NCBI GenBank assembly: GCA_024641705.1
Contig: JAHECO010000003.1
Coordinates: 139,826 to 203,825 of the forward strand
Reading direction: 5' to 3'
DNA length: 64,000 nucleotides
Origin: Candidatus Kryptoniota bacterium
GTDB lineage: Bacteria; Bacteroidota; Ignavibacteria; Kryptoniales; JAKASW01
Part shown: piece after piece, positions 9,199-49,956 of the stretch
Numbering within the stretch: the stretch's first letter is position 1
Layout of the letters: each line of letters starts with the position of its first letter
Position numbers and translations under genes: made by a program
The notes under the pieces: generated by a model
Database searches by the model: none
Told to the model about the DNA's origin: nothing
What the model saw: the letters and a program-made list of their open reading frames with translations, nothing else

Positions 9199-9439
9199 TT
9201 TCAGTTCAGCAAACCGCGCCCCCTAGCGGCAGAAGATCATATGTTGTCAAGATTGGCTTGTCAAGTCGTTCTGTAATATGACCGACGGCGGCCCTCTTTA
9301 AATTCCTATCAGGAAATAATCAGCAGGTAGGTTTTCGAGAGTCAGCGGAGAGTAAGTAAACGGGCGGAGCTGCGCGGGTCTGAGAATTTCGGCCCGCTCA
9401 TCGGCATATGCCTCGCGATCGTTTTGCTTATTCATGAAG

Positions 9440-9463
9440 AAGGCGGCACACTGATGCCGCCTT
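9440..9463 (-). terminator. Hairpin terminator after the fatty acid hydroxylase-like gene
   Basis: A perfect 9-bp stem AAGGCGGCA/TGCCGCCTT with a 6-base loop lies 27 bases past the stop of the minus-strand gene ending at 9490. On the minus strand it is followed by a short pyrimidine stretch (CTTCTTC) rather than a clean U-tract, so an intrinsic terminator is probable but not classical. Confidence 0.5.
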
Positions 9464-9489
9464 TCAGACATTGTCTTGCAAATTCTTCT

Positions 9490-10131
9490 CTATCTCTGGA
9501 CGGTAACGCTTTCCTGCTTCTGTCTCTTCAGGTAAGTGCCGAACACGAAATCCCACAGCGGTGAGCTGACACCGTAGTTATTGTCGGGATCGAAGTAATG
9601 GTGACGCATGTGCTGCTGCTTCAAGTACAATCCCACTTTTCCGCGCAGGCCGAAGTGGTGAACCGCGTAATGTGTCAGGTCGTAGGAGAGATAGCCGGCG
9701 ATGAAGCCTGCGAAGAAGGGCGGGAGGTAATACGCGCCGAGGATCTTCATGAATAGGAAATAGAAGAGCAGTGCCAGCGGGATGCTGACGATCGGCGGCA
9801 TCACCAGGCGTGTAGAGTCGTTAGGGTAGTCGTGGTGAACACCATGGAACATGAAATGAATTTGCTTCCCCCATCCGCTCTTGGGCACAAAATGGAAAAT
9901 GAACCTGTGGAGAGTGTATTCTGTGAAACTCCAGATGAAGATGCCCAGTACGAACAGGGCGAAAATGTAGTACAGGCTGATGCCGGTCACGACCGACGTG
10001 TAGAACATGTAGGTCACGACAGGAAGGTAAAGTATTGCCGGCACCGATGGGTGCACGTGTGAGAAGAATTCGAGGAAATCGTTCTTGAACATCCGGACGG
10101 ATTCGTCGCTATTCGAGACGTACAGCTTCAT
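9490..10131 (-). CDS. Fatty acid hydroxylase / sterol desaturase superfamily membrane protein
   Basis: I chose the ATG at 10129-10131, which follows AAGGAG by 7 bases and gives 213 residues. The protein has four to five hydrophobic segments and the di-iron histidine clusters of the superfamily: EYTLHRFIFH (H75, H80), HFMFHGVHHDYPND (H92, H96, H99, H100), HYAVHH (154-159) and HMRHHYF (174-178). The closest pattern known to me is fatty acid 2-hydroxylase (Scs7/FA2H without the cytochrome b5 domain), which hydroxylates the alpha carbon of acyl chains, for example for sphingolipids. The substrate is inferred. It appears to be a single-gene transcript with a terminator at 9440-9463. Confidence 0.85.
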   Translation of the reverse strand: MKLYVSNSDESVRMFKNDFLEFFSHVHPSVPAILYLPVVTYMFYTSVVTGISLYYIFALFVLGIFIWSFTEYTLHRFIFHFVPKSGWGKQIHFMFHGVHHDYPNDSTRLVMPPIVSIPLALLFYFLFMKILGAYYLPPFFAGFIAGYLSYDLTHYAVHHFGLRGKVGLYLKQQHMRHHYFDPDNNYGVSSPLWDFVFGTYLKRQKQESVTVQR

Positions 10132-31775: not shown

Positions 31776-31805
31776 CGTCTCACCACTCCACTATTCCCCG
31801 ACTAC

Positions 31806-31934
31806 GAGGTTGTCCCAAAACAAGGAAAATGTCATTCTGAAGGAGCGGAGCGACTGAAGAATCCACTTATTCGTTCTGAAAAATGGATGCTTCACTTCGT
31901 TCAGCATGACAGACAAGACTTTCTGGACAGCCTC
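31806..31934 (-). repeat. 129-bp dispersed imperfect-hairpin repeat, copy B
   Basis: Minus-strand copy of the element also found at 15902, 46993 and 54138, exactly 129 bases. Its plus-strand ends are gaggttgtcc and ggacagcctc. Outside these, ccccgac on the left and gtcggg on the right extend the pairing, as in copy A. It lies just upstream of the hydrolase gene, between it and proA. The rest of the 31776-32081 spacer is tggagtggtgg-type word repeat and holds no gene. Confidence 0.9.
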
Positions 31935-41168: not shown

Positions 41169-42123
41169 TCATGCATTTGCCTTGCCGTATAAGTCGCCGT
41201 CCAGGTACTTCAACCCCGTATCGACCGCGACGGTAACGACCGTGTGTCCAGGTCCAAGTTCCCGCGCGAGCAAACATGCTCCGAGTACGTTCATCCCGCT
41301 CGACGTGCCGGCGAAGATCCCTTCTTCTCTCGCGAGGCGCCAGGCCATTTCACGCGATTCGGCCTCGTCGATCCCGCGTGCTTCATCGTAATAAGCTTTG
41401 TCGAGCAGAGGCGGCACGAAGCCTATGCCGATGCCTTCGACGTGATGCGTCCCGCTGATTCCTTTTGATATGATCGGTGTGGATGCCGGCTCGAGCGCGA
41501 CTATGCGCGGGGAAGGAGTGAGATGACGGATCACGTGCGCGACGCCCATCAGCATGTGCGCCGTGCCGACCGATGCGCAGAAGGCATTAATCGGTCCGCC
41601 GACCTGTTCAATCAGCTCCCGGCCGATCGCTTCATACCCTTTCGCGGCATCCGTATTATTGATCTGGTTGGTGAAGTAGCTCGGTTCCGATTCCGCGATT
41701 TCTTTGGCGCGCTGCATCATCCTGGGCACAAGATCGGGGTCGACCATCCCGCCCTTGCTCGGGACGATCGTTAACTCGGCTCCGAAGGCTCTCATCGTCT
41801 CGAGTTTCTCCTTCGCGAATGCGTCGGACGACACGACGCGGAAGCGGTACCCTTTTACCGCGCAGACGAACGCGAGCGAGGAACCGGTGCTGCCGCCTGT
41901 GTATTCGACGACCGTCATTCCCGGGCGGAGGTCGCCGCGCTTCTCCGCTTCCTCGATCATGGATAGTGCCATGCGGTCTTTATAGGAACCCGTCGGGTTT
42001 GTAGTATTCGAACTTGACCAACACATCGGCAGACTTCGGAGGTACGACTTTGCCGAGGCGAACCAGCGGAGTATTGCCGATCGCCTGAAGGATGGAGGGT
42101 GCTGTTTTCATGACCATCTTCAT
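41169..42123 (-). pseudogene. PLP-dependent cysteine synthase-family gene with a one-base frameshift
   Basis: The N-terminal frame starts at ATG 42121-42123 (or 42117) and reads MKTAPSILQAIGNTPLVRLG, then VLVKFEYY, before going out of frame at the run of three A's (ttt at 41998-42000). Removing one A restores NPTGSYKDRMALSMIEEAEK and an intact protein of about 317 residues. The rest has VEYTGGSTGSSLAFVCAVKG and GIFAGTSSGMNVLGAC. The PLP lysine is in SYKDRM. Family enzymes form cysteine, cystathionine or related amino acids by beta-replacement. The rest of the gene is undamaged, so this is either a recent mutation, a sequencing error or a slippage site. An internal start at 42026 would lack the N-terminal domain. 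Confidence 0.88.
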
Positions 42124-43417: not shown

Positions 43418-43538
43418 GTTACTGCCTATCGATATGTTGATGGTATCCGTAGGTCCGCATCATTTGTCGCCGCGCAATAGTACAGACGTACGGCGAAATG
43501 ATGCAATCTCCCTTCATCCGGGCAATCATTTCCCTCAA

Positions 43539-43602
43539 ATCTAACAAGCGGAATTGAAGTCTCAAGGTATACCTATGCGTGTCATTACTTCGTCTGTTAG
43601 CC
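43539..43602 (-). other. attC-like recombination site 1
   Basis: Read on the minus strand this 64-base site starts GGCTAAC and ends GTTAGAT, a match to the RYYYAAC...GTTRRRY frame of integron attC sites except for one position. Inside, GAAGT pairs with ACTTC, and the tip is the perfect palindrome AGGTATACCT. The stop codon of the preceding gene (43597-43599) lies inside the left end. This is the best-formed site of the series. Confidence 0.6.
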
Positions 43603-44085
43603 GCCGTTTTGGGAAGCACGTGTAATTTCCAACTTATAAGCTACGGGTATAGAGTATTCCTGCGTGCGCTCGTGTCCTTGTCCATCCTTGAAGCGGTCCT
43701 CATATGACCGAGAGCGCAGGTAGACAGTGTACCGCCTCGTGCCGACGGTTAGTGAGAAGACTTGGTCCTTTCGGATTTCGGTTAAGCAGGCTGCAAAATC
43801 CCAAACAAGTGCGTGAACCGTATCTCTTATGCCGAATTCCCAGAGACACTTGACGGCAGTATTAGCTGTGCCAAGCCTCCACGGCATGTGGCCATCAGCA
43901 AGTTGGTGAGACCATTCTTCGAACGCTTTGCCGTAATCTTTGAGGACGAAAACGCTGTCATTTACCTGTGTCCACTCCTTAGGTACCGTGAAGTGTACCA
44001 CTACAGAACTTGAGCTAGAATCTTGTGCCCGAGACGGCAAAGTAGCGAAACATGCGATGGTTAGGATTATCGCGAGCGCCCGCAT
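43597..44085 (-). CDS. Secreted protein of unknown function (cassette gene)
   Basis: I chose ATG 44083-44085 (GAGGAAAATACC upstream), giving 162 residues; an ATG at 44103 would add six. It has a signal peptide (MRALAIILTIACFATLPSRAQ) and then a mixed alpha/beta domain of about 140 residues with no motif I recognise (VPKEWTQVNDSVFVLKDYGK). It is presumably periplasmic. It ends ITRASQNGG with its stop inside attC-like site 1. The same ending pattern GG-stop inside GGCTAAC is seen in the HNH gene at 47365. Confidence 0.6.
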   Translation of the reverse strand: MRALAIILTIACFATLPSRAQDSSSSSVVVHFTVPKEWTQVNDSVFVLKDYGKAFEEWSHQLADGHMPWRLGTANTAVKCLWEFGIRDTVHALVWDFAACLTEIRKDQVFSLTVGTRRYTVYLRSRSYEDRFKDGQGHERTQEYSIPVAYKLEITRASQNGG

Positions 44086-44138
44086 GGTATTTTCCTCATC
44101 CACAATGGCGCCGTTGAGTGAACTCGTTTATTCAATAT

Positions 44139-44175
44139 GTTATGCGTGAACGTCATTGTTGCCGCTGTGTTAGAC
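44139..44175 (-). other. Degenerate attC-like site 2
   Basis: Seven bases past the stop of the preceding gene, the minus strand reads GTCTAACACAGCGGCAACAA then TGACGTTCACGCATAAC. The first seven bases fit RYYYAAC, and TAACA...CGGCAA..GACGTT matches the other sites. A proper GTTRRRY right end is missing, so the site is incomplete or diverged. Confidence 0.35.
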
Positions 44176-44182
44176 AACGCCG

Positions 44183-44650
44183 CTAGTTATTCTTGGCACG
44201 TGTTTGTTCCGCCGCTTGGCGCAATGCTTGAATCTCGTAGTCTTGCTCACACGATGTCCAGGCCTCATGGCCTAGATAGGTTAACAACAATGCCAGTGCG
44301 GCCAAACAGCCAAGAAACAAACTTGCGTTGCGTGCTGTCAATCTTAGTGTTGGCATCATTGGACCTGCCACGGCAGCAAAGAGAACAGCCCCTCGGACCA
44401 AAACGTACTGAGTGAGAACAAAAAACCACTTCCCACGAGACCGCCTTGTTGTCCAAGTCTCCAAGTATCGTTTGTGGCTGAAAGATTCAAATCTCCGCCA
44501 GAAAAGAGCAATGAGAATAACCAGACTCGCCGAGATGAACTTTGTGATAACATCGGACAGTCGCTTGTCAAGGGAAACACCGACCAGAAGTCCACACAGA
44601 AGGCCGGAGAGAAAATAGAGAAAGGATGAGGGGTTGCTCATTCTTGTCAT
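44183..44650 (-). CDS. Small membrane protein of unknown function (cassette gene)
   Basis: The open frame extends to 44821, but its first 57 codons lie in attC-like site 3. ATG 44648-44650 (or 44641) is the probable start, giving about 155 residues (MTRMSNPSSFLYFLSGLL). Two N-terminal hydrophobic segments (FLYFLSGLLCGLLVGVSL, ITKFISASLVILIALFW) and two further ones (LVRGAVLFAAVAGPM, LFLGCLAALALLLTYLG) suggest four helices. The C-terminus is a charged helix. No family is recognised. It begins about 30 bases after site 3, typical for a cassette gene. Confidence 0.5.
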   Translation of the reverse strand: MTRMSNPSSFLYFLSGLLCGLLVGVSLDKRLSDVITKFISASLVILIALFWRRFESFSHKRYLETWTTRRSRGKWFFVLTQYVLVRGAVLFAAVAGPMMPTLRLTARNASLFLGCLAALALLLTYLGHEAWTSCEQDYEIQALRQAAEQTRAKNN

Positions 44651-44680
44651 AGTATAATCTGGATCATATATGGCGGTGGC

Positions 44681-44860
44681 GCATAACGTGGCCGCATCAC
44701 GCAGTCCGTCCGGGCGGTTCGCACGGACGGATTGAGCGAGCACGTTGCATGTACAAATGAGAGCCTGCCCCGATGCCGCCCTGCGGCATCCCGACATATA
44801 AATAATTTGGACGGGAAACACGGAACGCGTATTCGGGGAGCGTCTTTTTGCCGCGTCCGT
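44681..44860 (-). other. attC-like site 3 with long hairpin body
   Basis: On the minus strand the body contains GCGGCAAAAAGACGCTCCCC and GAATACGCGTTCCG, shared with site 7, then a strong stem CCGTCCG/CGGACGG, and ends CACGTTATGCGCC (GTTATGC core at 44681-44687). The left TAAC core is not recognisable, so the site is damaged or the boundary has been lost. Confidence 0.4.
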
Positions 44861-44900
44861 GCACGACGGCTAGAGGATCTCATGTCAACTAGGCAACTCA

Positions 44901-45725
44901 TTAAGGTGTCGGTTTTATTCTTGAGAAAACGCAAGTGGAAACCTTTGAGGCGAAGTGTTGGACGTCCAGGGTAGCGGGTGTTGACATGCCTGGGTGAGCA
45001 GCGCTGTTTCTAATGCCTAGGAGGCGTTCCAACTCTTCGAATGTTTGCAGGTCGTAGGACCAAAGCTCCATTCCAACGGCGATCAAATCAAAATCGCGAG
45101 CTCTCTGTAACTCAGGCAAACTGGTAATATGGCCCGATTTTGAAACCCTATTAAAGGGATTCCCTTTTTTCGCAAGGGTGATGTCAAGCGCAGAATTGTA
45201 TGCCTTATATCCCATGATTTCAATCGCGGAATGCATGCGTGCGATAGCTGCTGCCCACAGAAGGATTATTGAGGCTCGGTAGCATTTTGTAGCTAAGCAC
45301 CGAGCGGCTTCGTCAACGTACTTCGCCTCGTCGGGATCAAGAAGACTCTCAAAGGTGGAAACGAGCTGCCTTCCGGCAACCTGACTTGGACTACCTTCGA
45401 ACCTGATCAGCGGAACCACGAATTGATCCAAGAATCCTTCGATTACGGGGGCGAGTTTCCGGCGATAAGTGTTGGCGCGTGACCTTTTGTTCGTACTTGC
45501 AAGCACGTCCTGCATCGTGCCGTTTACAGTATCTATTCCGGCGCCATCAATGAACTCCGCGGAACGGAGACTCTCTGAAAGACGAAGCCATGATTTGGAA
45601 AGCTCAGCTAACTCTTGGATTAAGCCGGGGTCAGTAACCTCCGCTTTTCCAACCTTCCCGAGCTTGTCATCGATTTCTTGGAGTGTGTCGAAATAGGTCT
45701 CAAGAACATCGCTGGATGGAGTCAC
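44901..45725 (-). CDS. HEPN-motif protein, second gene of a two-gene cassette
   Basis: The 274-residue, largely helical protein carries an RNSAAH motif (Rx4H) near residue 240 in LLGIRNSAAHPGM, the signature of HEPN RNase domains. The preceding region (ARCLATKCYRASIILLWAAA then IARMHSAIEIMG) fits the HEPN/ApeA-like helical bundle that precedes such motifs. HEPN proteins are commonly toxins or effectors in toxin-antitoxin and anti-phage systems that cleave RNA; whether this one does is inference. The GTG start at 45723-45725 overlaps the stop of the upstream gene by four bases (GTGA), so the two are translationally coupled and probably work together. Confidence 0.65.
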   Translation of the reverse strand: MTPSSDVLETYFDTLQEIDDKLGKVGKAEVTDPGLIQELAELSKSWLRLSESLRSAEFIDGAGIDTVNGTMQDVLASTNKRSRANTYRRKLAPVIEGFLDQFVVPLIRFEGSPSQVAGRQLVSTFESLLDPDEAKYVDEAARCLATKCYRASIILLWAAAIARMHSAIEIMGYKAYNSALDITLAKKGNPFNRVSKSGHITSLPELQRARDFDLIAVGMELWSYDLQTFEELERLLGIRNSAAHPGMSTPATLDVQHFASKVSTCVFSRIKPTP

Positions 45726-46318
45726 CGCTGTCCGTCCTTAGCCAAAGCGCCGATCAACTTTTCAGCCTCTTTGATCCCGTCGGAAGTCAATTCTAGGTTT
45801 CTGCCGGCCTCCACGGACTTGAAGAAGTTTCCGCCCGATCTGAGAAAGTATGCATGGTTCTTCCGGTCATAACAATTCTGGTCTACAGACATTGCCTGAA
45901 CCTCTTTCCAGTCAGCGATCCAACTGCCAGTTGAGAGATAGGTCTTGAACGCGATAGCCATGGCCACTTTTCGAGCGGTGTCAGCTTTGTTTTCGCCTGG
46001 AACAGCGATAGCATGGAAGCCGAAAGGATCCTTCGTGAAATCAAATAGGGATTCCAATTCGGTCACAGACAGGCCTAGACGTTTTGCTGCGGTCTGTAAG
46101 CGAGGTAAGATTGTCGCTGGTACCAGCGTTGAGGGCAGCTCCGGATCGCCTCGTCGCTGAGGTTGCGTCTGATTGGACTTGGCGGGCGCGCTGGCCCCAA
46201 GTTGGGCATCCACGTATCCCTTCAGTAGCACCTCAAAGCATTTCTCCTTGAATGGGTCGGGACATTTGTCGACGATAGTAAGTATCGAGTTCAGAACTTC
46301 TTCAGCGTTATCGTACAT
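45722..46318 (-). CDS. Protein of unknown function coupled to the HEPN gene
   Basis: The 198-residue protein has no motif I can name. Residues 1-45 are helical (MYDNAEEVLNSILTIVDKCP), followed by a disordered linker (ASAPAKSNQTQPQRRGDPE). The C-terminal part (residues 62-190, VPATILPRLQTAAKRLGLSV to ELTSDGIKEAEKLIGALAK) could be a winged-helix-like domain. It overlaps the HEPN gene by four bases. As the upstream partner of a probable effector it could be an antitoxin, regulator or sensor; this is only a positional argument. It starts about 75 bases after attC-like site 4. Confidence 0.55.
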   Translation of the reverse strand: MYDNAEEVLNSILTIVDKCPDPFKEKCFEVLLKGYVDAQLGASAPAKSNQTQPQRRGDPELPSTLVPATILPRLQTAAKRLGLSVTELESLFDFTKDPFGFHAIAVPGENKADTARKVAMAIAFKTYLSTGSWIADWKEVQAMSVDQNCYDRKNHAYFLRSGGNFFKSVEAGRNLELTSDGIKEAEKLIGALAKDGQR

Positions 46319-46392
46319 TGTGTCCTCCGTGATGAGTTAGAATGTATTGACAGGAAACTTATGTCAGACTGAAACAAGCCGTCGTGCATGAC

Positions 46393-46507
46393 GCCTAACC
46401 GCGCGAACCACGCCCGTGCCGCGCTCCTCTTATGGGGTACTTTACGTGCGCGGCATGAAGCGAGGTCGATATTATATAATCGAGCGTCTTCTTCTTGCTC
46501 GTTATCT
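46393..46507 (-). other. attC-like site 4
   Basis: On the minus strand the site starts AGATAACGAGCAAGAAGAAG then ACGCTC and ends GCGTGGTTCGCGCGGTTAGGC. The right core GTTAGGC fits GTTRRRY. An internal stem GCCGCGC/GCGCGGC gives the expected hairpin. The left end is 29 bases after the stop of the preceding gene. The left core AGATAAC departs from RYYYAAC at one position, as do several other sites here. Confidence 0.5.
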
Positions 46508-46535
46508 GCCGTTTGCGGCCTTGTCCGAGATTCTT

Positions 46536-46943
46536 TCATCGTACAACGGAAGGTGAATAGCCAGCCTTATCAAATAGTTCGTTAATCAAGGAAGATATAT
46601 CCTTCACGGACTTTTCACAGTAAGCAGGCTCGACGACAATAAAGCCTTCATCAATGTCATAATGGCTAACAGAAAGTCCAATACCTTGAGTAGCAATATC
46701 TTGAATTCTCTTCTGGTCTGAGGAGAGAGCAACCTCTCCAAGAGTATGCACGATACAATTCCTCACCTTGGACAGATCTTCAATCACCTCCCAAGCATTG
46801 GGTGATAATTCGGGAATCGCGGCAATCTTGTGCAGGTACGTCCTGCTTCGAGCAATAATATCGCCTTTTAAGTCGTTGGCACGGACTTGGAGGTTCTTTC
46901 GTTTCTTGACAGAGTCCGAAAAGCGAGTGAGAAGGTTCTCCAA
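46536..46943 (-). CDS. HEPN-like protein, probably truncated at its N-terminus
   Basis: The open frame gives 135 residues from a TTG at 46943. It contains VIEDLSKVRNCIVHTLGEVA, an Rx4H HEPN-type motif (RNCIVH) near residue 71. No good ribosome-binding site precedes the TTG. The reading frame stays open upstream to the edge of repeat copy C (46993-47121), which appears to have inserted into or replaced the 5' end of the gene. A soluble RNA-binding or RNase-type protein is likely by motif; activity is unproven, and the gene may be non-functional. Confidence 0.5.
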   Translation of the reverse strand: MENLLTRFSDSVKKRKNLQVRANDLKGDIIARSRTYLHKIAAIPELSPNAWEVIEDLSKVRNCIVHTLGEVALSSDQKRIQDIATQGIGLSVSHYDIDEGFIVVEPAYCEKSVKDISSLINELFDKAGYSPSVVR

Positions 46944-46992
46944 GTTTAGGAAGAGTAGGACGATGAAAGAGTAGCGTTGAGAACGTGGGAAC

Positions 46993-47121
46993 GAGGTTGT
47001 CCCAAAACAAGGAAAATGTCATTCTGAAGGAGCGGAGCGACTGAAGAATCCACTTATTCGTTCTGAAAAATGGATGCTTCACTTCGTTCAGCATGACAGA
47101 CAAGACTTTCTGGACAGCCTC
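46993..47121 (-). repeat. 129-bp dispersed imperfect-hairpin repeat, copy C
   Basis: Minus-strand copy, again exactly 129 bases, with plus-strand ends gaggttgtcc and ggacagcctc. It lies between the HEPN-like fragment and the 62-residue gene, whose stop codon (47120-47122) overlaps its edge. The flanks pair only weakly in this copy. Its presence inside the accessory region shows that the repeat was mobile or recombining after the region had formed. Confidence 0.88.
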
Positions 47122-47308
47122 ACTCATCCCGCAGTATGGATTCCTCAGCATTAAGTTCCTCCTCATCCTGAATATTTTTAAGAAAAGCTTCGTTGCGGTC
47201 TTCCGCCTCCTTCTGCATCCTCACCAACTGAGATTCCATCTCAAGTTGGTAATCTCTCAGCATGTGAAGCACGCTGTCAAATTCCATTCGGAAAGGGTTG
47301 AACTTCAT
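47120..47308 (-). CDS. Small acidic coiled-coil protein (62 residues)
   Basis: The protein is one long charged helix (MRDYQLEMESQLVRMQKEAE-like pattern, FLKNIQDEEELNAEE) with an excellent ribosome-binding site (AAAAAGGAGACCG before ATG). It ends at the edge of repeat copy C, so the native C-terminus may have been lost. I recognise no family. It follows attC-like site 6 within 60 bases, consistent with a cassette gene. Confidence 0.5.
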   Translation of the reverse strand: MKFNPFRMEFDSVLHMLRDYQLEMESQLVRMQKEAEDRNEAFLKNIQDEEELNAEESILRDE

Positions 47309-47342
47309 CGGTCTCCTTTTTCATATGGGTTCCGCAAATGGC

Positions 47343-47370
47343 AAATAACGTCTTTCTTGCGGTGTTAGCC
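47343..47370 (-). other. Short attC-like site 6
   Basis: On the minus strand GGCTAAC overlaps the HNH gene stop and is followed by ACCGCAAGAAAGACGTTATT. CCGCAA can pair with TTGCGG 20 bases further on. The left end matches sites 2, 4 and 7 (TAACnnnnCGCAAnAAAGACG). The body is only 28 bases to GTTATTT, so this is a shortened form. Confidence 0.4.
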
Positions 47371-48354
47371 GCCGTGTCGAGCCCGGCGTTTGGGATTGAG
47401 TACTTCATGTTCAAGGTCATCTGGGAGTTCCGGCAGTTCCGGGACACCGGTAGCCACTTGATCGTGGAAAAGCCGAAGAAGACGGACTGCATTCTGTAGG
47501 CCAGGACGGTTCAAGGTGGAAAAGAGCCTATTATACTTTTCCTCCAAGCTTTCCATCAGCGCCTCCACCTCGTTCACAAATGCAAACTGATGAATTTGCC
47601 ACAAGAGCTTGGCACCTTCAAACACAATTTGGAGATCTGCTAGTTTAACTGCGCCATCGTAAATAAGGTTATCGGCCACCTCGGCACCGACGCGAAATAG
47701 CTGCAACTGAGCCTCACCAATTACAGAATGCTGCTTCTGCCGCAGGGAAGGAATCGGGAGAAAGTCAAATACGAGATCGGCTATTTGGCGCGCTATATCA
47801 CCAGGCATGCTGTATCTTGTGGCCTCAGAGACATGGTGTAGCCCTTCTAAGATCGCAAGACTCGCAGTTGCGCCAGCTATATTGACATAAACATGCAGAG
47901 AAGAAAGAACTTCCTTGGCTGTTTCCCAATCTTCCCAGAAACGGGCTGACAATGCCTTCCGAACTTCTAAGACGATCATGGCATCCATTGTGAGTCGGAG
48001 CCGATCTTCGTCAATCTCAATCGAATCTCCGCCAGGCGCGGAGTATCTGGGGCGTCGCTCAGATTTCACCTTGTCGTACCAATCGTCTCTGAACTTCCTG
48101 AGCAACTCTGGCGTGAGCCTCCGTTGAAGCGATCCTTTGATGGACGCCTCATTGTGATCTTTGTAGCAAAGGAACACCAGATTCTCAAGCTGGTTGTTCG
48201 TCGGGTCGAGATCGATATGATGAATTTGGTCTCCACGATCACCGCAGACGCAACACCGCATTTGTGCGCGGAACATGACTTCTTCAGCAATTGACTGTGG
48301 AATCTTAGGTCGCCGAACAGAGCGGCGGTTTGTATGAGTAGCGTGGTTCTTCAC
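47365..48354 (-). CDS. HNH-domain protein (cassette gene)
   Basis: The 329-residue protein has an N-terminal HNH nuclease-type domain: C-x2-C (RCCVCGDRGD, residues 34-43), the HH pair in IHHIDLDPTNN, and N and H in LENLVFLCYKDHNE. The remaining 230 residues are helical (residues 100-310, ALSARFWEDWETAKEVLSSL) with no known signature. HNH proteins cut DNA in homing, restriction and phage-defence contexts; the target here is unknown. The ATG is at 48352-48354, close to the right end of attC-like site 7. Its stop (47365-47367) is inside the start of site 6, so the gene fits one cassette exactly. Confidence 0.72.
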   Translation of the reverse strand: MKNHATHTNRRSVRRPKIPQSIAEEVMFRAQMRCCVCGDRGDQIHHIDLDPTNNQLENLVFLCYKDHNEASIKGSLQRRLTPELLRKFRDDWYDKVKSERRPRYSAPGGDSIEIDEDRLRLTMDAMIVLEVRKALSARFWEDWETAKEVLSSLHVYVNIAGATASLAILEGLHHVSEATRYSMPGDIARQIADLVFDFLPIPSLRQKQHSVIGEAQLQLFRVGAEVADNLIYDGAVKLADLQIVFEGAKLLWQIHQFAFVNEVEALMESLEEKYNRLFSTLNRPGLQNAVRLLRLFHDQVATGVPELPELPDDLEHEVLNPKRRARHGG

Positions 48355-48394
48355 ATTGCTCCTTTGGTATTCATGCTCTAGGGCAAGACATGGC

Positions 48395-48565
48395 GGCTAA
48401 CGTCCGCCGCAAAAAAGTCCGTCCCGCTTGCCGCATATAAATATTTGCGTAGCATCCAGAATGCGGCAAGCAGGATGAAAAGCGAACTCGATATATATCC
48501 CATGATAGCCTGCCCCGAAACGCGGAACGCGTATTCGGGGAGCGTCTTTTTTGCGGTTGTTAGCT
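48395..48565 (-). other. attC-like site 7, long hairpin
   Basis: On the minus strand the site runs from AGCTAACAACCGCAAAAAAG to CTTTTTTGCGGCGGACGTTAGCC. CCGCAAAAAAG and CTTTTTTGCGG form a perfect 11-bp outer stem about 150 bases apart. A second hairpin (CCCCGAA/TTCGGGG arms) and inner GCTTGCCGCAT/ATGCGGCAAGC arms fill the body. It lies 26 bases after the stop of the zinc-ribbon membrane gene. Confidence 0.55.
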
Positions 48566-48591
48566 GGCGTTTGCGCGGGCAAGGTCATGGC

Positions 48592-49233
48592 TCACCATCC
48601 TCTCCTCTCCCGAATTTGTTGAAGTCGTTCTTCACTTTTCTTTCTTGCTTCTTCATCTTCTTGGAATTGTTGCTTGGCGTCCTCAAGGCTTGCATTGACC
48701 TCATCTGCGTTGAAAGCGTGACCGCAGAACCGACATACCTTAGCTTCAAACTTGACTTCTTCCGCGCATTGAGGGCATTTCTTCATCATCTTTGAAGGGT
48801 CAAAGGTTGGCTTTTCCTTTTTCACCGCGGCCTGCTTTTCTTCTCCCCATATTTCGTCCTCAGTTCTCAACACGGCCGCGGTCGTTACGCATAATATTCC
48901 GAGAACAAAGACACCCCATCCCCATGTTGGCTGTGTGAGTTGTCCAAGAAGGCCGAGTTCACCAACTCTTGATTGCAAACTGACAAACGTGTATATAACA
49001 ACTCCGAGCGATGCAAATCCTGTCAGCCAGAGGAACTTGTACATGCGCATGTTTGTGAGCGCAATAGAAATTCCAGATAAGACCCCTATGATTACGCATT
49101 CAGCAGTACCAGCCACTTGGAAATAGCTCATGTTTTCTCCAAATGGGACACTGAGGACAGGCGCAAAGATTCCGACTGAGAATATTATTGGGCCAATTAT
49201 ACCCAGGACGAGCCTTAATTGTTCTTTTCCCAC
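48592..49233 (-). CDS. Zinc-ribbon membrane protein of unknown function
   Basis: The 213-residue protein has four N-terminal membrane helices (residues 5-125, for example LGIIGPIIFSVGIFAPVLSV), then a linker and a zinc ribbon (CPQCAEEVKFEAKVCRFCGH, residues 154-173, two CxxC pairs), and a C-terminal charged helix. This arrangement is common in small bacterial membrane proteins of unknown role. Its start overlaps the preceding gene by 19 bases, so both are in one transcript and may belong together. Confidence 0.7.
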   Translation of the reverse strand: MGKEQLRLVLGIIGPIIFSVGIFAPVLSVPFGENMSYFQVAGTAECVIIGVLSGISIALTNMRMYKFLWLTGFASLGVVIYTFVSLQSRVGELGLLGQLTQPTWGWGVFVLGILCVTTAAVLRTEDEIWGEEKQAAVKKEKPTFDPSKMMKKCPQCAEEVKFEAKVCRFCGHAFNADEVNASLEDAKQQFQEDEEARKKSEERLQQIRERRGW

Positions 49234-49685
49234 TTATTCCTCCGTTCGGTTATCTCGATTGTTCCATGATACAACTTAAGATTGCTGAAGTCATCTTTGA
49301 AGCCACCACACTTACTGAAGCTCTTGATGTACTCAGAGCCAAGTTTTATTTCGACGCCAATTGAGGCAGGCACGGCGTAGAAACTGTGTGCAAGGTTCGG
49401 GAGAAGAACTGCAATGTCAAACCTACCGCCGTATCCATTGGGATATTCGCCTTTCACAATTGACGACGTGACTGGAGAAGCAATTGATGCCTTGAACTGG
49501 TTGTCAACTGGAAATTCGGAAATTGCGTCAATGGATTTCTCAAGGTCAACCAATAAATGTGCTCTTGCATCCTCCTCGTAAAAAAAGGAGAACGGGTTTT
49601 CAGTGAACTGCGTGAAAAAGATAGAGAGACATTTCGTGAACCGTCCCACTATCTGTTCCCGCGACAATGATTCCAACTCGCTCAT
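49215..49685 (-). CDS. Possible PD-(D/E)XK-fold protein (cassette gene)
   Basis: The 156-residue protein starts with a helical region (MSELESLSREQIVGRFTKCL) and contains RFDIAVLLPN near residue 93 and IGVEIKLGSEYI near 113. Aspartate followed about 20 residues later by E-x-K is the spacing of the PD-(D/E)XK nuclease fold. Evidence stops there; it may be a nuclease or a related non-catalytic domain. The ribosome-binding site is strong (GGAAGGAG). The next gene starts inside its last 19 bases, which suggests a coupled pair. Confidence 0.5.
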   Translation of the reverse strand: MSELESLSREQIVGRFTKCLSIFFTQFTENPFSFFYEEDARAHLLVDLEKSIDAISEFPVDNQFKASIASPVTSSIVKGEYPNGYGGRFDIAVLLPNLAHSFYAVPASIGVEIKLGSEYIKSFSKCGGFKDDFSNLKLYHGTIEITERRNKWEKNN

Positions 49686-49956
49686 CGAACGTAAATCTCC
49701 TTCCTTTAGTGGTATTTACTGGCGCAAATGCCAGCTACCTGAATCCCGTCATATGGCGTTTTTCCCGCCGGCTATGCATGAAAGCTGCCATATGGCATTT
49801 ATTTCCCTTATATCCAATCTGCGTACTTTCACCGAATTTACCCGCCGTCCGACTACCTTAAAATCTCGGGCCGGCGCCGGCAGGAAATTGTCAAAACTGC
49901 CGTTCTATTGACAAGACTTATCCGCGCAAATCCGTCCAATCCGCGTCATCTGTGTT
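49686..49956. other. Spacer at the right edge of the accessory region
   Basis: No gene is visible. Two related segments, cgtcatatggcgtttttccc and ctgccatatggcatttattt, lie about 50 bases apart; the second has a 12-bp palindrome TGCCATATGGCA. An attC core (GTTA) is not seen here, so the outer end of the array is unclear. The sequence tagtcggacggcggg near 49850 marks the change back to ordinary genes. Confidence 0.4.

Follow-up and report, generated by a model that had tools for sequence, protein, structure and literature searches.

Results

The cassette array

The analyzed window is a stretch of 64,000 nucleotides (64 kb) of a Candidatus Kryptoniota bacterium genome (contig JAHECO010000003.1, positions 139,826 to 203,825). 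It includes an array of genes and attC-like sites that spans about 49738-43481. Six attC-like sites lie on the minus strand between about 43481 and 48568; one of them is intact, one is good, and four are decayed. In reading order along the window the features are as follows (R'' and R' are the left and right cores of a site; L-numbers denote loci, and G-numbers genomes, of the comparison set).

43481..43605, minus strand: site F, the last attC-like site, right core decayed to GTCTG; 79% DNA match to a site of locus L113
43597..44103, minus strand: gene of cassette C5, 168 aa, no Pfam match; its stop codon lies inside R'' GGCTAAC
44100..44176, minus strand: site E, 5' half only, the 3' half being lost; homologous to the full site L139:7503-7630, 92% over 61 nt
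44183..44667, minus strand: gene of cassette C4, a membrane protein, with an in-cassette start within ORF 44183-44821
44678..44864, minus strand: site D, R' core intact (GTTATGC at 44687), R'' core lost by a small deletion; repeats shared with site A
44901..46318, minus strand: cassette C3, two overlapping genes (274 aa, 198 aa) with no family match; by direct reading its start GTTAGGCGTCATGCACGACGGCT mirrors its end
46390..46510, minus strand: site C, a good attC-like site
46536..47308, minus strand: cassette C2 genes (135 aa, 62 aa), with a 133-bp dispersed repeat at 46990-47122 between them
47340..47373, minus strand: site B, a truncated attC-like site that keeps both cores but has lost its body
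47365..48354, minus strand: gene of cassette C1, 329 aa, weak HNH match (Pfam HNH_3, E 0.0011, below the cut-off)
48392..48568, minus strand: site A, an intact attC-like site
48592..49685, minus strand: cassette C0, a membrane/zinc-ribbon gene (213 aa) and a 156-aa gene; the 213-aa protein has a 38% homologue within another array (L107)
49720..49739, minus strand: left boundary of C0, GGTAGCTGGCATTTGCGCC, which by direct reading mirrors the R'' arm of site A with an A/G difference at position 10

The repeat inside cassette C2 is nearly identical in at least 22 places of the same genome, including about 31804-31934 of the window. The cysteine-synthase-like gene 41169-42026 seems to be frameshifted near its start (about 42000-42030, minus strand), as the preceding bases read on in another frame; this comes from direct reading and was not tested.

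To assess the sites we built a covariance model, R1, from 32 related sites in genomes of the same genus. In a search of the whole window on both strands with filters off, the five best hits all lay in this region on the minus strand: 48392-48568 (92.8 bits, a member of the training set), 46390-46510 (42 bits, E 2.6e-7, not a member), 47340-47373 (16.1 bits), 43481-43605 (15.7 bits) and 44678-44787 (15.2 bits). The three weakest hits are not significant alone (E 0.15-0.23), but their place in one strand-consistent series and their homology to sites elsewhere support them. A simple rule-based attC scan was too weak for decayed sites: it found only 48395-48565 above background in the region and would not have revealed the array alone. 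It is the comparative evidence that settles the matter. A search of Rfam gave nothing relevant in the region.

The first-pass annotation had described a minus-strand series of mostly unknown genes, each followed by an attC-like site, and this observation is confirmed in substance. Two of the sites that it singled out, at 48395-48565 and 46393-46507, were placed correctly, and the 11-bp outer stem reported for the former (CCGCAAAAAAG/CTTTTTTGCGG) is real. The gene stops at 43597 and 47365 do lie in GGCTAAC, as claimed. Some details required correction. The site at 43602 does not end at the GTTAGAT at 43539; that motif lies in the hairpin loop, as in the homologous site L113:5253-5380. The site at 47373-47340 is truncated, a further site (44864-44678) is present, the site at 44176 has lost its 3' half, and the array begins at about 49738 instead of 49685.

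It had been stated in advance that the same genes in the same order in related genomes would speak against a cassette array. The window cassette genes had no DNA matches in the other 12 genomes of the genus, so the region is not a conserved operon. An ordinary operon with a terminator hairpin after each gene would explain why all genes are on one strand and are followed by hairpins. However, the hairpins are homologous across many unrelated genes and genomes and have the core motifs and the linkage to a recombinase described below, and we regard this explanation as extremely unlikely. In the flanks of the array, the C_GCAxxG-like gene has orthologues in four relatives but the other flank genes do not follow, and thus no clean empty site was obtained.

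The family of sites

A search with the intact site against 13 genomes of the genus gave matches in 11, and the matches were clustered. R1 gave 3-46 sites in 12 of the 13 genomes, counts that should be treated as lower bounds; the family also occurs in other families of the class. The sites are about 115-180 nt long and lie on one strand at spacings of 0.5-3 kb. The median cassette length is 856 nt, and in 97 of 106 cassettes the longest ORF is on the site strand.

The sites have the cores R'' (..YAAC) and R' (GTTR..) and the paired L arms of attC. Base pairing is supported by strong covariation over the 32 sites: the score was 0.438 against 0.145 in shuffled alignments (0 of 500 shuffles reached it), with 181 cells changed on both sides against 66. 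Related sequences can exceed shuffles without any structure, but the slid controls (0.054-0.107) and the size of the excess make that unlikely here. The L arms are 11:11 with no extra base in 141 of 150 sites, so the extrahelical bases of attC were not found in the arms; extra bases elsewhere in the fold were not assessed.

The cassette as the unit of exchange

For 107 cassettes we compared the start (from the right core of the previous site) with the reverse complement of the end (before the left core of its own site). The two ends of one cassette match at 12.3 of 21 positions, against 7.6 for the two sides of one site and 7.7 for unrelated pairs. The match extends 18 nt from the core and stops. 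At position 10 the start has A and the mirrored end has G in 70 of 76 clear cases, which would give a T-G pair on the bottom strand and an A-C mismatch on the top strand. In reconstructed circular sites the bottom strand folds more stably in 65 of 70 cases (p 1.4e-11). The window cassettes 48401-47364 (15/21) and 47349-46502 show the same pattern, and cassettes C0 and C3 show it by direct reading. As a control, nine canonical cassettes from IntI loci of the same class also show matching of their own ends, over about 12-15 nt and without the difference at position 10. The matching is thus a shared integron-like trait; it is its length and the position-10 difference that set this family apart, on a small control set.

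Among homologous blocks of 300 nt or more between loci, 37 of 334 ends lie within 5 nt of a core (11% against 0.66% expected, i.e., 17 times more often than by chance). In one clean case a cassette is shared at 93.5% between genomes G072 (L107:14872-15426) and G112 (L137:5068-5619), with cores at both ends. In another, the first cassette on C37, a contig of the window's own genome, recurs inside an array of genome G057 at 82% and in genome G018 at 75%.

These comparisons bear on the possibility that the sites are a dispersed palindromic repeat (MITE or REP-like) that spreads by transposition and merely lands between genes. The sites do have inverted ends and many copies, and they share sequence. 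However, the ends of a cassette match each other and not the other half of their own site, and homologous blocks end at cores, i.e., the cassette and not the site is the unit of homology. The sites also share one strand orientation and have a fixed position after a recombinase. We therefore consider such an element very unlikely.

A recombinase linked to the arrays

Tyrosine recombinases of about 300 aa lie immediately upstream of the arrays on the same strand, and the arrays start 26-108 nt (usually 53-72 nt) after the recombinase stop codon. In eight of nine loci of the genus the first cassette begins 53-66 nt after the stop at a G-TTA junction, i.e., is joined to an attI-like site; several other families of the class show the same arrangement. 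It had been suggested beforehand to look for an integrase beyond the window. No IntI over the cut-off was found in the window's genome, but contig C37 carries the recombinase, an attI-like site, a first cassette and a site, with the array running off the contig end. A second recombinase lies at the edge of contig C1 of the same genome, with a tandem-like repetitive stretch upstream of it (L009:1158-1500). Inverted repeats at the attI-like sites are clear in several loci (L193, L198, L200, L139), but only 10 of 27 exceed the 95% shuffle level, so we do not claim the palindrome as universal.

Among 19 examined loci with a recombinase of this clade and more than 1 kb of downstream sequence, 18 have an R1 hit within about 2.2 kb downstream on the same strand; eight of these loci are from other families and were not used in training. 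R1 gave no hits in 19 canonical IntI loci, which carry differently built attC sites. Site and linkage counts include several loci per genome and are not phylogenetically corrected, and the genomes are draft MAGs. Many contigs end within a few hundred bases downstream of the recombinase, as would be expected if that junction is variable or repetitive, although this is suggestive only.

Across 294 genomes of the class, 31 of 36 genomes with a strong homologue of the recombinase also have R1 hits (odds ratio 75, p 8e-19 with the genus excluded). The threshold for a strong homologue (E 1e-76) was set after the identity ranges had been seen, and related genomes are not independent. Seventeen genomes have hits without a strong clade recombinase, and five show the reverse. 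In a sample of 395 genomes of the phylum strong homologues appeared only in this class. Weaker homologues in the class (40-47% identity) showed at most weak signs of arrays and no association with R1 hits. Homologues at under 60% identity were found in 532 plasmid records of many genera (40-45% in the best rows), and a scan of viral contigs gave one weak relative; neither was followed further, and whether any of the plasmid homologues lack the I2 insertion and sit beside cassette arrays was not examined.

A canonical CALIN (a cluster of attC sites lacking an integrase), with ordinary attC sites moved by an IntI that is now lost or acts in trans, should also be considered. The core motifs are the same, and two of the 13 genomes of the genus, G078 and G118, carry IntI. 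In G118 a true IntI gene (L048, about 9257-10100) is cut off near model position 275 by a GTTATGCC junction followed by cassette-like genes with a canonical-looking attC site. Among genomes outside the genus without the clade recombinase, IntI presence is weakly associated with hits (7/46 against 7/208, p 0.005), so the use of such sites by IntI in trans is not excluded; in the four genomes checked by coordinates the hits were on other contigs than IntI. Nevertheless, this explanation is largely refuted by the position of the arrays right after the other recombinase, by the absence of IntI over the cut-off in the window's genome and by the lack of R1 hits in IntI loci, and we regard it as unlikely.

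Relation of the recombinase to IntI

In a tree of 67 sequences the 33 array-type recombinases form one clade (support 0.90) beside 29 IntI (0.999), with Xer-like enzymes outside. The array-type recombinases lack about 40 IntI-only alignment columns covering the I2 region. The tree has only five outgroup sequences and does not decide whether I2 was gained in IntI or lost here. Scores against TIGR02249 were 223-248 bits, below the cut-off of 265, and were split into two stretches around the missing region. R150, K175, H240, R243, H266 and Y275 are invariant in the alignment, in agreement with the tyrosine recombinase active site (R-K-H-R-H-Y); their assignment to the catalytic residues is by motif. 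IntI 2A3V is the best solved match by sequence and by predicted fold (mean pLDDT 79.5), but the global superposition is poor, so we use the prediction only as support.

Discussion

We conclude with high confidence that the region is a partly decayed cassette array of CALIN type that belongs to an integron-like gene-capture system. The system comprises a tyrosine recombinase of about 300 aa that is sister to IntI but lacks the I2 insertion, an attI-like site after its stop codon, cassettes, mostly of one gene each, that are read away from the recombinase, and a hairpin site ending each cassette. Sequence comparison demonstrates that the sites are stem-loops under selection, that the cassette is the unit of exchange, that the junction lies at the G-TT core, and that the recombinase is linked to the arrays. 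The mechanism is our inference, as recombination was not assayed: the recombinase would join an excised circular cassette to attI using the folded bottom strand of the site, new cassettes would thus enter next to the recombinase, and sites in an array would allow excision. In this view the window array, which is ordinary within the system, is a side cluster whose sites have mostly decayed.

The first-pass annotation interpreted the region as a cassette array of an FCB-group chromosome, possibly an orphan cluster or one with its integrase elsewhere, and our analysis supports this interpretation. Related MAGs are labelled Bacteroidetes, and the integrase is indeed elsewhere in the genome. What could not be seen from the sequence alone is that this integrase is not IntI but a member of a sister clade, lying upstream of and co-oriented with cassettes, and that the sites form a family of their own with different arm features.

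Current accounts treat I2 as the innovation that let a tyrosine recombinase use single-stranded folded sites. Deletion of I2 abolishes IntI1 function, acquisition of I2 is the proposed origin of integrons, and no ancestral sequence is available (PMC7790495; PMC4792948). It is more likely than not, in our opinion, that the system described here is a working one, in which an I2-less sister of IntI recombines folded hairpin sites. It would then be either a living representative of the stage before I2 was acquired, or a lineage that lost I2 and rebuilt its sites to do without it. Such a system would make the origin of integrons directly testable, since both lineages can be compared in one assay. 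It would also mean that integron surveys that recognize integrases by I2 miss such platforms. IntegronFinder relies on IntI and attC models, and its description notes that the extra domain distinguishes IntI (PMC9024848). We found no report of cassette arrays with an I2-less integrase in the open-access literature, although subscription papers and preprints were not searched and the absence of prior work is not thereby proven. 

Comparison with known systems

Integrons, including sedentary chromosomal integrons, share with this system a recombinase, an attI-like site and a one-strand cassette array, as well as TAAC/GTTA cores, paired L arms, a more stable bottom strand and complementary cassette ends. 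The differences are the lack of I2 in the recombinase, the L arms without an extra base, the conserved A/G difference at position 10 of the outer arm, and the recombinase being upstream of and co-oriented with the cassettes. In our view the system works like an integron, but because of the missing IntI-specific region and the absence of extrahelical bases in the arms we do not classify it as a canonical one.

The window array resembles a CALIN in that no recombinase was found among the neighboring window genes. The absence of attC model hits had been named as an outcome that would contradict a cassette array; we examined this with R1 and not with the public attC model, so the hits leave formal membership among CALINs undecided. 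The sites belong to the I2-less system and have not been shown to be IntI substrates.

Treponema chromosomal integrons (PMC3607928) are also comparable. Their integrase has the same direction as the cassettes, but it is a true IntI. The clade described here would fall near the “integron-like” subgroup of tyrosine recombinases (PMC8138268). We found no link drawn there between insertion-less members and cassette arrays, and the insertion is called essential for integron function. Finally, the single-strand integration of CTXphi by XerCD (PMC4792948) likewise involves a hairpin site without extrahelical bases and a recombinase without an I2-like domain. CTXphi hijacks the host XerCD and has no cassette array, whereas here a dedicated recombinase sits by its array.
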